Source: an uncultured Pseudomonadota bacterium
GTDB taxonomy: Bacteria; Pseudomonadota; Alphaproteobacteria; RF32; CAG-239
Length of the DNA: 41,262 bases
NCBI GenBank assembly: GCA_902793695.1
Contig: CADBEI010000021.1
Location: forward strand, 1-41,262
Reading direction: 5' to 3'
Of this stretch, positions 31,840 to 37,090 are shown piece after piece. A model generated the notes under the pieces. The model worked only from the letters and a program-made list of their open reading frames with translations. It ran no database searches and was not told the origin of the DNA. Position numbers and translations under genes: made by a program. Every line of letters starts with the position of its first letter. The first letter of the stretch is position 1.

Positions 31840-31872
31840 TTACAACACATAAAAAATTCTATGATATTTCAG

Positions 31873-31905
31873 CGGCTGCCTTTTCGGCGGCCGTTAATTT
31901 TATTC
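31873..31905 (+). terminator. Terminator after fabH
   Basis: CGGCTGCC pairs with GGCGGCCG (one G-T wobble) around a TTTTC loop and is followed by TTAATTTTATT. Confidence 0.75.
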
Positions 31906-31918
31906 TCCGATTTATCCG

Positions 31919-31947
31919 TTGACAAGCGGCGCTTAAAGTGATATGCC
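31919..31947 (+). promoter_or_regulatory. Promoter of the DapB-like gene
   Basis: TTGACA (31919-31924), 17 nt, TATGCC (31942-31947). Predicted leader of about 30 nt to the ATG at 31984. Confidence 0.6.
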
Positions 31948-31983
31948 TTTAAACATAGTTTAATTATTAAAATATTATTGCCT

Positions 31984-32799
31984 ATGAATTATATCGGAAT
32001 TGTAGGAGCTTTAAGCTCTTTGGGACAAGGTGTAATTGCCGTGTTGAAAAATCAACCGGAACAGTTTAAGGTTGTATTTAAAGTCGATGACCGTTACACA
32101 ACCCAGAATTTAGTCAAAGGAGAGTTTCAGAATCTCGAACAAGTGCTCAGTCATGGTATTAATCCTTCTTTGGTATTGGACTTCGGCGTTCCCGAAAAGA
32201 TATTTGAACGAGCCAAATTCTATCGTGATTATGAAATTCCGGCAATCATGCAAACGATTTTCGGAGATGAGAGATGCCATATATTGGCAAATTCTCGTGG
32301 TTTATCGCAAAATGTTCATACGCCGCTGATATTGGTGCCGGAGTTCTCCGTCATCAAAGTTTCAATGGTCAACAATTTGAAGGTGATTGCCGAATATCTG
32401 GCTAACGACGTGAAAAATATTCATATTGACGTACTTTATAATACCGAACGCTACAACAACTTCAACCAATGGCTGTACTGGGCTTATCAGCTCAATGAGG
32501 TACTCGGCGAGTATACCAAAACGTATCGTCAGGACGGTTGTACGCTGACTTGCGGTTTTGTGCATTACGGTTTTATGAAGATTACTTCAATGAATAAAAA
32601 CGAGGAGAACATCCACATACAGATTACGACCGAAGAAAGAGAAATACCCTTCCGTTGTGAGATGCGTTATGATTTGCTCGATTCGCGTATTAAGGGGGCC
32701 ATAAAGGTGCTGAACTGGTATATTGACAACTGCAAGGCCAAGACATTATGCGGGATAAATGCCAATATATATAAAGATATATTGGCAGCACTCGTCTGA
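31984..32799 (+). CDS. DapB-like protein lacking the catalytic motifs
   Basis: A 271-aa protein whose order of elements follows dihydrodipicolinate reductase (lysine/DAP pathway): an N-terminal Rossmann start (YIGIVGALSSLGQGVIAVL), a DFGVPEKIFERAKF element like the family DFTxPE, a LILVPEFSVIKVSMVNN element like the AxNFSxGVN stretch, and a C-terminal half ending with helices like the usual RxxFxxGAxxAxxWL. However, the family catalytic stretch Glu-x-His-His-x-x-Lys-x-Asp-x-Pro-Ser-Gly-Thr-Ala is replaced by VLYNTERYNNFNQWLYW. It therefore probably does not reduce dihydrodipicolinate; it could be a structural or regulatory paralog, or bind another ligand. Assignment to the fold is by eye and is inference. 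It has its own promoter and terminator. Confidence 0.55.
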   Translation: MNYIGIVGALSSLGQGVIAVLKNQPEQFKVVFKVDDRYTTQNLVKGEFQNLEQVLSHGINPSLVLDFGVPEKIFERAKFYRDYEIPAIMQTIFGDERCHILANSRGLSQNVHTPLILVPEFSVIKVSMVNNLKVIAEYLANDVKNIHIDVLYNTERYNNFNQWLYWAYQLNEVLGEYTKTYRQDGCTLTCGFVHYGFMKITSMNKNEENIHIQITTEEREIPFRCEMRYDLLDSRIKGAIKVLNWYIDNCKAKTLCGINANIYKDILAALV

Positions 32800-32802
32800 T
32801 AT

Positions 32803-32836
32803 AAAAAAACACCGATTTGAAAATCGGTGTTTTTTT
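32803..32836. terminator. Bidirectional terminator
   Basis: AAAACACCGATT faces AATCGGTGTTTT around a 4-nt loop, with T runs on both strands. It lies between the DapB-like gene and the converging 102-aa gene. Confidence 0.9.
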
Positions 32837-33143
32837 AATCCAATAATTGCGGCTCTTGCTCCAAAATCATTCTCCAGCACTCGCAGATAAAATTCTCAAG
32901 CAGCGGAGACAGAATCTGATACTTTGACAGAGTGCCGGTTTTACCGTCCACATTTGGGATATAGCGACGCCTGATTTCCCGACGACAGGCCTGAGGCACT
33001 TCAATATTCAAAGTGTGTTCCTCTCCCTTTTCGCCGCACCTTTCGTCAAAGACGGTATATTTCATACCATCTTCATCAATAACCAGAGATACTCTCATAT
33101 AATCAGAGACTCTCTCATCAATAGTCTTAATAACAATTCTCAT
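32835..33143 (-). CDS. Small protein of unknown function
   Basis: A 102-aa protein that I do not recognise. The first half is predicted strand-rich (RVSLVIDEDGMKYTVFDE, HTLNIEVPQACRREIRRRY) and the second half helical and acidic (SPLLENFICECWRMILEQE), with three cysteines. No signal peptide or membrane helix. It ends at a strong terminator and has an A/T-rich upstream region, but no clear ribosome site. Coding is likely but not certain. Confidence 0.5.
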   Translation of the reverse strand: MRIVIKTIDERVSDYMRVSLVIDEDGMKYTVFDERCGEKGEEHTLNIEVPQACRREIRRRYIPNVDGKTGTLSKYQILSPLLENFICECWRMILEQEPQLLD

Positions 33144-33292: not shown

Positions 33293-34903
33293 ATGTTGCG
33301 ATTTTCCGATTTAAAATACAGCAAGCAACAGTTGGAAGAAGATGCCGTACACTATTTAAAAACACAGGTGTATGAGCCTTCGTACATTGATGATGTCAAA
33401 GATTTTATTGCCGCTGATTTAAGCGATTTCAAAGCATATTTTGACGATGAAGAATACGTTTTTCAGAGTGTGTATTATGATGAATACGTCGACGGCTATA
33501 CCGAGCGCGGAGATAATCTGGTGGTGCAACTCGATTATAAGCGCCTGACACATGATTTGGAAGCGGAATTTGCAGCGTGGGGTATGGACGACGAAGATGT
33601 CGAACAATATGTATCGTTTTTAGATTCGGAATTTCGCAAAAACGCCTTTTGTTCGCATATGGAACCGTATTTTTTGGGCTATGACGGCGTGGTTACCACA
33701 GTTATGACCGGTTATTCCCGCGACCCGATATTTTCGATTTATGCGATGGTGCGTGAGTGGGATATGGCATTGCATTTCAAAAAAATGTATCCGACACATA
33801 TGCGCAAGTTCGGTTTCCGCTACCAAACAATTCGGCAAAATTTTAAGGGCGAGGAGCGGCTCAAATATTTGCTTGATTTTCGCGATCGCTACAAAATCAC
33901 TTTGCGCAGTATCGGTATGTTACGTTCGGTTCATTCCAGTGTGTTTGCTTATATATATCTGTATCTGAAAGCATTTTTGTTTGGCGAAACCGAAGCCATT
34001 GAGGATTTTATTTTAGATACGTCTTCATCGCAATTATTTTTATTGTTGCAAGGTGAAGATATCCAAATCGCCGATTTTCCGATTGTCAGACATGCCTTGA
34101 AAGAATTAAAAAGCGGCCGCACTAAAGAATTGTTGTATTCCACCGGTGCTATCAACTGGGATGCGCTTTATGAGTTTGTTGACGAGATGATACAAGATGC
34201 CGGCGGTATGGAGAATCTGCGCGCTCTCGGATTTGACGGTATTCAAGCCAAGACCATCCGCGCCTTTTGGAACAAGAGTGCCAATATGCAGAAAATGCTG
34301 AAAATTTTACGCCAAATGGCTATGGACAGAAGCGACCCTATTATCAACCGGCTGATTGAGATGTGCGAATATCGTTTGGGGCGACCGGATGATAAAAGCA
34401 AGAAAAAGATGGAGCGCTTTATTGAACAAACCAGACGGATTATGGCCGCTCGCGCCTATGATTTAACTCAGCCGCGCACTATGGATCAAATGTTGATTTC
34501 GGCATTTCCGTCGGTGTTTTTGGTGTATTTCCAATGGCACCACAATTTTCGCAAGGTTTATCCGAAAGAGCCGCCGCAAAAGGTTTATTATGAAAATAAC
34601 CTGAAGAAAAAACGACAGGCCGAGGATGTTTTAAAAAATAAAATTACCTACGAAGAAGAAACAAACAGGGTTAAAAAATATCAGCAAGAAGAACAAAACA
34701 AAAAAAGAGAGAACAACTCGCTCAATCTTTTTGTGATTCAGGAAAATAGCAATAAGAAAGAGAACTCCAAAGATTCGATTTTAAATAATCGCGACAATAC
34801 TTTAGGGAAGTTTGTTGAAGATCGTAAAAACCAAAGAGATGCGGATTCCGCCGCTACCTCTTTATCGCTGATTGAACAATCCAAAAAGCAAAATTCTTTG
34901 TAA
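33293..34903 (+). CDS. Large cytoplasmic protein of unknown function
   Basis: A 536-aa protein with no signal peptide. I do not recognise a family. Residues 1-130 are very acidic and aromatic (YFDDEEYVFQSVYYDEYVDG, FAAWGMDDEDVEQYVSFLDS). Residues 130-420 are mostly helical with scattered Arg/Lys clusters. A highly charged Lys/Glu/Asn segment (KKKRQAEDVLKNK...) makes up about the last 110 residues and is likely disordered or coiled coil. A single hydrophobic stretch (SSVFAYIYLYLKAFLFG, about 220-236) could be a buried helix rather than a membrane segment. It stands alone with its own promoter. The reading frame, ribosome site and codon use support a real gene, probably restricted to this lineage. 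Confidence 0.75.
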   Translation: MLRFSDLKYSKQQLEEDAVHYLKTQVYEPSYIDDVKDFIAADLSDFKAYFDDEEYVFQSVYYDEYVDGYTERGDNLVVQLDYKRLTHDLEAEFAAWGMDDEDVEQYVSFLDSEFRKNAFCSHMEPYFLGYDGVVTTVMTGYSRDPIFSIYAMVREWDMALHFKKMYPTHMRKFGFRYQTIRQNFKGEERLKYLLDFRDRYKITLRSIGMLRSVHSSVFAYIYLYLKAFLFGETEAIEDFILDTSSSQLFLLLQGEDIQIADFPIVRHALKELKSGRTKELLYSTGAINWDALYEFVDEMIQDAGGMENLRALGFDGIQAKTIRAFWNKSANMQKMLKILRQMAMDRSDPIINRLIEMCEYRLGRPDDKSKKKMERFIEQTRRIMAARAYDLTQPRTMDQMLISAFPSVFLVYFQWHHNFRKVYPKEPPQKVYYENNLKKKRQAEDVLKNKITYEEETNRVKKYQQEEQNKKRENNSLNLFVIQENSNKKENSKDSILNNRDNTLGKFVEDRKNQRDADSAATSLSLIEQSKKQNSL

Positions 34904-35306: not shown

Positions 35307-35918
35307 TTATCCCAGAAAGTATTGCTCGGCGTGATTTTTCGCCCCCGGAACATCGCTGATTTGCCGCAGCACTAACAGCGGAACATCATATAAATAGCAC
35401 GTTTGGGCAATAGACGCACTTTCCATATCTACCGCCAAAGCTGCCGGAAAATTCGCCTTAATCTCCTGCAATTTTTCAGCCTTTTCCACAAAAAAGTCGC
35501 CGCTGCACAACAACCCCTGCTTATATTGCTTAAGGTGCGACACCAGAACAGAATCGGAGTGATACATCTCCGGCAGGCCCTGCACCTGTCCGTATTTATG
35601 AGGATTGCCGCACCATACGTCGTGATAAACAATATCTTTGCCCACCACAAAATCGCCGATTTTGAGTGAGGAATCAAGCCCGCCGGCAATACCGATGTTC
35701 AGCACTGTATCCACCTTAAAAACATTGATGAGGTCAGCCGTGCATAAGGCCGAATTTACCTTTCCCATTCCGGAAACAACCGCCGTGATGATCTTATTAT
35801 CGGCCACGCCGGTATAAAAAGTGCATTTATGTATGGTTTTTTGTTGCAAATCTTGTAATACGGAAGCAAAAAACTGCATTTCCTTATCCATAGCAAACAT
35901 TAATCCGATGTGTTTCAT
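35307..35918 (-). CDS. mtnN: MTA/SAH nucleosidase, C terminus frameshifted
   Basis: Cleaves 5'-methylthioadenosine and S-adenosylhomocysteine, the waste products of S-adenosylmethionine use, releasing adenine. The 203-aa uninterrupted frame contains the family N terminus (KHIGLMFAMDKEMQFF, with the active-site Met-Asp-x-Glu), GMGKVNSALCTADLI, NIGIAGGLDSSLKIGDFVVG, the ribose-binding AVDMESASIAQTC, and LRQISDVPG with the catalytic Asp. The last helix is missing because of an apparent single-base frameshift (tail at 35255-35306). The ATG at 35918 has an AGGAGAGGG ribosome site. It is divergent from metK. Whether the shift is real or a sequencing error is undecided. Confidence 0.88.
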   Translation of the reverse strand: MKHIGLMFAMDKEMQFFASVLQDLQQKTIHKCTFYTGVADNKIITAVVSGMGKVNSALCTADLINVFKVDTVLNIGIAGGLDSSLKIGDFVVGKDIVYHDVWCGNPHKYGQVQGLPEMYHSDSVLVSHLKQYKQGLLCSGDFFVEKAEKLQEIKANFPAALAVDMESASIAQTCYLYDVPLLVLRQISDVPGAKNHAEQYFLG

Positions 35919-35943
35919 ATTCCCTCTCCTTTTGTTGTGCTTC

Positions 35944-36009
35944 ATCATATCATAATCAGCGCAAATCACAATATTAAACCTTGACAGTGTTGATAAATGT
36001 TTTTATAAA
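35944..36009. promoter_or_regulatory. Divergent promoters of mtnN and metK
   Basis: Plus strand, metK: TTGACA (35981-35986), 17 nt, TATAAA (36004-36009), near consensus. Minus strand, mtnN: TTGTGA (35971-35966), 16 nt, TATGAT (35949-35944). The -35 boxes are about 10 bp apart, back to back. Confidence 0.7.
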
Positions 36010-36088: not shown

Positions 36089-37090
36089 ATGATTAAAACA
36101 GCAGAATATGTGTCCTTGGGGCACCCGGATAAAATTGCCGATTACATTACCAGTTATATTTTGGACCGCTTTATTGAACAAGACGCGGCAACGCGCTATG
36201 CGGTTGAAGTGATGGTGAAGGATAACACCGTCGTTTTGGGCGGCGAAGTTTGTTCCAAAGTGCAAAATGCCCCATTTGAACAATACGTAAAAGAAGCTCT
36301 CCGTGAAATCGGCTATGATGAGCACTATGCCAAAATTTGGGGAGATAAGGCGATTGATGTGCGCAAAATCAAGGTTATCAACTTAATCGGTTGTCAATCG
36401 TGCGAAATTGCTAAAGGCGTTGATAATGACGGCTGGGGCGACCAAGGTGTATTTGTCGGCTATGCCTGCAAGGGCGAAGATTATATCAATCGCGAACTGT
36501 ATTTGGCGCGCAAGCTTAGTCGGGAGCTGTATCAAAAGGCACGACAAAGCGATAACCTCGGTTTGGATATCAAAACGCAAATTACCCTCGACGAAAACGG
36601 TAAGATTTTGACCGCCATTGCGGCAATACCGATGTTGCAACCGAGTGATTTGCGCGAATTTGTTTGTGATGTTTTGGGTGAAAAACCGGCGCAAATCATT
36701 ATTAACGGTGCCGGCAATTATACTTCTCATTCCAGTATTGCCGATTGCGGTATTACCGGACGTAAACTGGCCGTGGATTTTTATTCTGCCGCATGTGCAA
36801 TCGGCGGCGGCTCTCCGTGGAGCAAAGATGCTACCAAAGCCGATTTAACACTTAATTTATACGCGCGCCGTTTGGCTGTTGCCAACTTACGGAATAATGA
36901 CGAAGTTTGGGTTTATTTATCATCTTGCATCGGCAAATCGGAGTTACCGAGTGCGGTTTTAAAGTGCCGCAAGGGCAATACTTTTACGGAAAGTATTTTG
37001 CAACCGGAAAGCCGACCGTCGGTACTGATTAAACAACTCGGGCTCGATAAGCCGGTTTATGCCAAGCTCTGTCGCGACGGTTTGATATAA
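36089..37090 (+). CDS. metK: S-adenosylmethionine synthetase, short divergent form
   Basis: Makes S-adenosylmethionine from methionine and ATP in the cytoplasm. At 333 aa it is about 50 residues shorter than the usual ~384. Key motifs are kept: EYVSLGHPDKIADYI (catalytic His, Mg-binding Asp, Lys), VEVMVKDNTVVLGGEV, CQSCEI (Gln), GDQGVFVGYAC, DIKTQITLDENG (Lys), DCGITGRKLAVDFYS (Arg-Lys), and SPWSKDATKAD (both Lys and the Asp). The shortening comes from a reduced loop before GDQG and the loss of the last ~30 residues that normally contain GHFG(R/K). Sequence is divergent throughout, so it may come from another group, but the catalytic set looks complete. Confidence 0.9.
   Translation: MIKTAEYVSLGHPDKIADYITSYILDRFIEQDAATRYAVEVMVKDNTVVLGGEVCSKVQNAPFEQYVKEALREIGYDEHYAKIWGDKAIDVRKIKVINLIGCQSCEIAKGVDNDGWGDQGVFVGYACKGEDYINRELYLARKLSRELYQKARQSDNLGLDIKTQITLDENGKILTAIAAIPMLQPSDLREFVCDVLGEKPAQIIINGAGNYTSHSSIADCGITGRKLAVDFYSAACAIGGGSPWSKDATKADLTLNLYARRLAVANLRNNDEVWVYLSSCIGKSELPSAVLKCRKGNTFTESILQPESRPSVLIKQLGLDKPVYAKLCRDGLI

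Follow-up and report, generated by a model that had tools for sequence, protein, structure and literature searches.

Why does a gut alphaproteobacterium keep a protein that is shaped like a reductase of lysine synthesis and lacks the active site of that enzyme? The question is raised by a gene in the window, the whole 41,262-nucleotide stretch of DNA analysed here. It lies at 31984..32799 on the forward strand, runs from an ATG at 31984 to a stop codon at 32797-32799 without internal stops, and encodes a protein of 271 aa that we call X; the program-made open reading frame begins two codons further 5', at a TTG at 31978. A sequence-only reading had described X as DapB-shaped, with a lost active site and an altered nucleotide-binding loop, free of stops, placed behind a good promoter and probably put to a use outside lysine synthesis. 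Its reading frame, predicted DapB fold and profile homology mark X as a DapB-derived pseudoenzyme.

We first consider descent from DapB. The single X sequence was a marginal match to the N-terminal domain DapB_N in Pfam (PF01113; E 0.006, 17.1 bits, cut-off 25.6), scored 15.6 bits against TIGR00036 (cut-off 122) and gave 0 matches when searched against the PDB with phmmer. Pfam did not recognise the C-terminal domain DapB_C (PF05173) in X, though the predicted model has its fold. Among nine other X proteins, two exceeded the DapB_N cut-off with 26.6 and 29.2 bits (L005 and L050 are these relatives), and the remaining seven did not, five scoring under it and two having no match; in the same scan, the true DapB of genome G013 matched both DapB domains. 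PF01113 alone is weak evidence, as it also matches other Rossmann enzymes, with hits at E <= 0.01 in 77/82 family genomes. A profile of 12 full-length X relatives (A4) was more telling: its first 17 matches among PDB sequences were all DapB, with E-values from 7.8e-9 to 0.019. The homology is thus marginal for the single sequence and significant for the 12-row profile, and it includes the N-terminal NAD(P)-binding domain, for which X itself falls under the cut-off. A direct comparison of the X profile with the G013 DapB gave an hhalign probability of 32, and we relied on the PDB profile search rather than on this comparison.

The predicted structure agrees with the profile. AlphaFold, given six sequences and no templates, produced a model of X with pTM 0.81 and pLDDT 80.4, the best of five models, of which the poorest reached 53.1. 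All 50 matches listed by Foldseek were DapB (best E 4e-13), and so were the first 18 rows of a second structure aligner (Z 19.8 to 17.3), the best of which superposed with an rmsd of 2.8 over 227 residues; amine dehydrogenases came next, interleaved with further DapBs. In the predicted model, the DapB fold extends across the whole chain, so both structure comparisons bear out the shape that had been read from the sequence. Taken together, the profile and the predicted fold show that X descends from DapB.

What has been lost is the catalytic apparatus. We compared X with the DapB of G013, the one true DapB of the order (RF32 in our searches). The HHxxK and Ser-Gly-Thr motifs are the catalytic and substrate-binding segments of DapB. 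In X, DVLYNTERYNNFNQWLYWA (32428..32484, forward strand) occupies the place of EAHHIHKKDAPSGTAKTLA in the G013 enzyme, and the catalytic Lys and Ser-Gly-Thr columns of the alignment are conserved in none of 12 full-length X copies. Column assignments are uncertain at such divergence; a motif search that needs no alignment, and is unaffected by this, found HHxxK and SGT nowhere in any of 15 X chains, so that the catalytic motif does not lie elsewhere in the protein. The GTTG segment is lost in all 15 copies as well. The column of the second catalytic His holds a His in 5/12 full-length copies, among them L051 and L052, in which an HH pair survives shifted by one column. Across the 12 full-length copies, residues 131-225 include no invariant position. 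With no catalytic Lys, Ser-Gly-Thr or GTTG left in the copies, the loss of DapB catalysis is shown at the level of sequence.

The nucleotide-binding half has fared differently. Its loop, G8-A-L-S-S-L-G14 (32005..32025, forward strand), keeps the first and third glycines (15/15 and 14/15 copies) and has lost the middle one in every copy, where Ser, Asn, Thr, Ile or Cys is found instead. X therefore does not have the GxxGxxG dinucleotide loop, and the alteration noticed in the single sequence holds in all 15 copies. Asp35, at the end of strand 2 (32086..32088, forward strand), is Asp in 15/15 copies and aligns with a Glu of the G013 DapB; this position is presumably that of the DapB acid that binds the adenosine ribose. 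The P119-E-F-S122 segment (32338..32349, forward strand) is the counterpart of P-N-F-S in DapB, and its P119 and S122 are invariant in the 12 full-length copies, as are G8, V34, D35, D66, Y80 and A87. As the acid and the outer glycines are kept, the most likely ligand of the Rossmann half of X would be NAD(H) or a similar dinucleotide. The loss of the middle glycine in 15/15 copies speaks against tight binding, and NAD may be bound weakly or not at all.

The reading that we prefer, and to which we give about an even chance, is that X is an exapted DapB pseudoenzyme that acts through its dinucleotide-binding half; it would work on another protein, as a subunit with a regulatory or scaffold role and no catalysis of its own. 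Alternatively, X could serve in assembly or as a scaffold, using the DapB shape for contacts with proteins and binding no nucleotide at all; that all 15 copies have lost GTTG and the middle glycine of the loop would be in keeping with this. There is a published case of a DapB-like protein that serves elsewhere than in lysine synthesis, namely CRR1, a plant chloroplast protein that is needed for the NDH complex (PMC4870678). It is not a clean precedent, as that source describes it as possibly reducing an unidentified substrate (PMC4870678), and the retention of Asp35 and the first glycine in 15/15 copies is what would be expected if the nucleotide site still matters. We therefore regard a nucleotide-free scaffold as doubtful.

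Next, we examined selection on X. Nei-Gojobori dN/dS was 0.15-0.19 in five close pairs and 0.25-0.31 in three more distant ones; these values are approximate, as dS was 1.0-2.2, and a ninth pair (G083/G085) gave no estimate because dS was saturated. None of 15 X coding sequences checked contained an internal stop. When four pairs were split, both halves had dN/dS of 0.10-0.22, with 0.10-0.20 for the C-terminal half where it is present. X thus combines purifying selection with the absence of catalytic residues, as a pseudoenzyme should. The earlier statement that the gene is not degraded by stops can accordingly be extended from one open frame to its relatives, and selection and the lack of stops together support the view that X is still a working protein.

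The C-terminal half (residues 131-225; 32374..32658, forward strand) is nearly all missing in the copies of G061, G070 and G087. These proteins (167-185 aa, counted from the ATG) lack approximately residues 137-226 and keep the last ~40, which presumably complete the Rossmann half in DapB. In our tree, the three shortened copies form one clade with support 100/99, and a single excision therefore explains all of them; the root of this tree is unsure, with a DapB end branch of over 5. The two shortened copies compared had a dN/dS of 0.15, and the shortened protein was predicted to form a compact DapB Rossmann domain (pLDDT 83.6; the first 19 Foldseek rows were DapB). As the first and third loop glycines, Asp35, Asp66, Tyr80 and Pro119 are kept, and as one clade remains under selection without the catalytic half, the function that X has kept would be located in the N-terminal Rossmann half. 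That the function resides in this half alone is weakened by the selection on the C-terminal half, which is therefore not dispensable in most species.

Selection on the C-terminal half where it is present also raises the possibility that X is still an oxidoreductase, for a new substrate, and that other residues of its C-terminal half, which is remodelled and rich in Tyr and Trp, have taken over catalysis. In favour of this, the predicted model retains the full fold, and 5/12 full-length copies have a His at the second catalytic His column. We consider this unlikely, as residues 131-225 contain no invariant position in the 12 full-length copies, the GTTG segment is gone and selection continues in the clade that has no C-terminal half.

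The gene has a narrow distribution. With the window protein as sole query, relatives were found in 7/82 family genomes, including its own; a profile of eight copies found X in 15/152 genomes, every one of them in the genus of the window (15 of its 26 genomes). One genome, G082, carries two copies, the second of them diverged, which brings the total to 16; the copy of G091 runs off its contig and was excluded from alignments and the tree. X was found in 10/15 genus genomes with a completeness of 90% or more and a contamination of 5% or less, and no copy was found in the other five of these or, overall, in 11/26. A class-wide profile search of 385 genomes returned two positives, the own genome and G369; the latter match was weak, and Pfam identified the matched stretch as DapB_N. 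A candidate relative in Eubacteriales (L009) was dropped because the match spans 33 residues only. The copies missing from 11/26 genus genomes count against our preferred reading of X as a non-catalytic subunit, and so does the divergence of X, whose profile reached only one DapB-like protein in 385 class genomes.

The surroundings of X differ between clades. The neighbouring genes, named by eye, include fabH, holA, greA, lon, dnaG, rpsA, a DHH-type gene, a HAD-type gene and an orphan of 90 aa. BLAST placed fabH beside X in both G000 and G082, and inspection by eye found greA in common between G053 and G144, lon between G036 and G091 and the DHH-type gene between G083 and G085. As close relatives have several X neighbours in common, vertical descent combined with rearrangement seems a better explanation than mobility. 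Searches for X relatives returned no match among plasmids; viral sequences gave 13 pattern matches and no relative. No tRNA gene lies directly beside X in the window or the 12 loci scanned; G029 has two ~1 kb downstream. We looked for a gene cluster from which a partner of X could be named and rejected the idea because contexts differ between clades; this variation also counts against the preferred reading, as the neighbourhood names no partner on which X would act.

Other genes near X were recorded. A conserved orphan of ~90 aa (LMFAGTIYESFEALEEVMGKLKLERP, with variants) is found near X in five genomes (L069:1420-1731, L070:5406-5684, L071:1193-1456, L072:5388-5666 and L074:1245-1523); the L072 copy had no Pfam match and the L069 copy no NCBIfam match. 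In the window, a 536-aa protein without a Pfam match (33293-34903, forward strand) also adjoins X in the nearest relative, L008, where it is 85% identical. Further downstream, a PNP_UDP_1-family protein (35307-35969) adjoins the gene of a short S-adenosylmethionine synthetase (36089-37090, forward strand; 333 aa), in which all three Pfam domains exceed their cut-offs, the central one being matched in part.

Conserved signals flank X. Upstream lies a promoter-like TTGACA - 17 nt - TATGCC (31919..31947, forward strand), followed by an AT-rich leader with AATTATT and no Shine-Dalgarno sequence (31948..31983, forward strand). A terminator-like hairpin after fabH (31871..31895, forward strand) separates the plsX-fabH genes from X, and an intrinsic terminator-like hairpin follows X (32802..32837, forward strand; -18.2 kcal/mol, z -6.2), which none of 200 shuffles equalled. 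Both hairpins and the TTGACA box are kept in L008. TTGACA occurs in 16/16 copies, and in 15/15 it precedes the start by 57 to 79 nt (the sixteenth being the G091 copy), counts that are limited by the related copies not being independent. In control sets, it was found within 100 nt upstream of 5/108 other ORFs and at -100 to -31 in 23/345 ORFs (22/344 without the window X), the latter an unbiased set from 419 kb chosen regardless of the pattern. As to the good promoter of the sequence-only reading, the exact TTGACA at 31919 is kept in relatives, which supports this box as the likely X promoter; the -10 (TATGCC) is weak, and a consensus scan left the pair unlisted and gave another, matching 9 of 12, at 31950-31978. 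From this conserved sequence, we infer that X is its own monocistronic unit with a functional promoter and terminator.

An SD-like tetramer is present in 0/16 X copies, as against 55/108 and 188/345 control ORFs; this lack does not clearly set TTGACA genes apart, since 10/23 TTGACA ORFs and 178/322 others have one. AATTATT was found in the leader of 3/23 TTGACA ORFs versus 7/322 others. The combined TTGACA and AATTATT pattern had 223 matches in the 26 genus genomes, compared to 20 for the reversed pattern; these are summed rows in which overlapping matches at one site count twice, and reversal makes a weak control, given that promoters lie ahead of starts by nature. The own genome had 18 matches at 16 sites (L100, L109-L125) against 0 reversed. 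Eight of ten proteins scanned behind the pattern had no Pfam match, and the other two were an HD-domain YfbR-like protein and, below the cut-off, an ACP-like protein. We do not claim a regulon, as AATTATT was no more frequent than its permutations in the leaders of the unbiased 345 ORFs (10, compared to a permutation mean of 9.8). On contig C6 of the own genome, L114 and L116 encode similar proteins of 256-257 aa that start with MILLYVTCSGANERTD and MILNYITCSGTNEFTD, have no Pfam match and share the promoter and leader layout of X. Convergent with X is an orphan of 102 aa (32835-33143, reverse strand), also without a Pfam match, which has a near-consensus promoter, TTGACA-16-TACAAT (11 of 12).

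These signals bear on a further explanation, namely that X is a relic on its way out that is tolerated rather than used. Its absence from 11/26 genus genomes, the shortened copies and its fast divergence would fit: in L008, from the Alphaproteobacteria MAG Tb.RUG.243, X is 77% identical to the window protein, compared to 92% for fabH and 99% for plsX. Still, X does not look like a decaying gene, given coding sequences without a single internal stop in 15 copies, purifying selection in eight pairs, a conserved promoter box and terminators, and the second, diverged copy in G082. We rate this explanation as very unlikely.

We then turned to the pathway in which DapB normally serves. The own genome is 99.82% complete. 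Our searches for the pathway covered DapA, DapB, DapF and LysA. DapB_C was not found in the own genome, and in the order it occurs in 1/153 genomes, that of G013, where DapB adjoins DapA with Asd (by eye) between them (G013:C1 27300-29681; L010, L040); this DapB was perhaps regained by transfer. DapA was not found in the own genome and exceeded its cut-off in 1/65 genomes. DapF was found in 0/18 genus genomes and not in the own genome, and LysA was over its cut-off in 0/26 genus genomes, with one match below it in G077. Of the pathway enzymes covered, neither DapA before DapB nor DapF or LysA after it was thus found in the own genome. Nor was a second, catalytic DapB found there: the other PF01113 match, on contig C4, outscores X and is over the cut-off with its neighbours in frame, and was rejected as a Gfo/Idh-type oxidoreductase whose nearest NCBIfam models, below their cut-offs, are UDP-GlcNAc 3-dehydrogenase and inositol dehydrogenases. 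These absences and the purifying selection support the proposal that X has a use other than lysine synthesis, and this gut alphaproteobacterium appears to have lost diaminopimelate and lysine synthesis. That X is instead a very divergent active DapB serving a hidden diaminopimelate pathway is hardly credible, as the fold alone speaks for it, the catalytic motifs are lost and searches of the own genome yielded no DapA, DapF or LysA.

The MurE model matched in 26/26 genus genomes and was over its cut-off in 0/26; three of these cross-matches were identified as MurF (G082, 357 bits, over its own cut-off) and two MurC-like ligases. The ligase of the own genome scored 325 bits with the MurC model and 153 with that of Mpl, for which the cut-offs are 335 and 389, with similar scores in G142. 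Its gene adjoins that of an LD-carboxypeptidase identified by Pfam (G000:C13:9000-13000, reverse strand; L065 1120-2481 and 229-1116). The MurC-like ligase and LD-carboxypeptidase, the lack of a MurE over the cut-off and the failure to find DapA, DapB or DapF suggest that the bacterium builds its cell wall on imported or recycled peptides. In G061, an AmpD-like amidase (L071:4517-5236; over the cut-off for Pfam Amidase_2 and below it for NCBIfam AmpD) lies ~4 kb from X, a second hint of cell-wall peptide recycling.

Our preferred reading, that of an exapted non-catalytic subunit, can be extended with these observations. As the lineage seems to have lost diaminopimelate synthesis, and perhaps takes cell-wall peptide from outside, DapB would have been freed of its old job. 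It is possible, and we propose it only tentatively, that DapB in this genus then turned into a regulator that senses a dinucleotide and perhaps controls the uptake or recycling of cell-wall peptides, and that one clade excised the catalytic domain and kept the sensor half. X lets one trace how an enzyme of core metabolism turned into a pseudoenzyme after the apparent loss of its pathway. A single genus holds, side by side, full-length copies that retain remnants of the His pair, others that retain none, and a clade without the catalytic domain; this makes it testable which part of the old enzyme carries the new function. The analysis also points to an order in which DapB is nearly absent (1/153 genomes) and yet MurF- and MurC-like ligases and an LD-carboxypeptidase are found.

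Finally, we compared X with known systems. Amine dehydrogenases, inositol dehydrogenases and inositol-phosphate synthases have the same general Rossmann fold as X, and the best amine dehydrogenase (Z 16.8) is level with several DapB rows; nonetheless, these enzymes rank after 18 DapB rows, and none is among the sequence matches of the profile. DapB itself (4-hydroxy-tetrahydrodipicolinate reductase; PF01113 and PF05173, TIGR00036) has a two-domain fold that X, in its model, shares over the full length. In the Rossmann half, X keeps the first and third loop glycines and the strand 2 acid of DapB, and the P-x-F-S segment is common to both. Unlike DapB, X has no HHxxK, SGT, GTTG or middle loop glycine, no recognised DapB_C and a score far under the TIGR00036 cut-off. 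CRR1 is DapB-like, as X is, and its role too lies elsewhere than in lysine synthesis; it differs from X in coming from plants (PMC4870678). This plant protein suggests that the lysine pathway is not the only setting in which DapB-like proteins can work.
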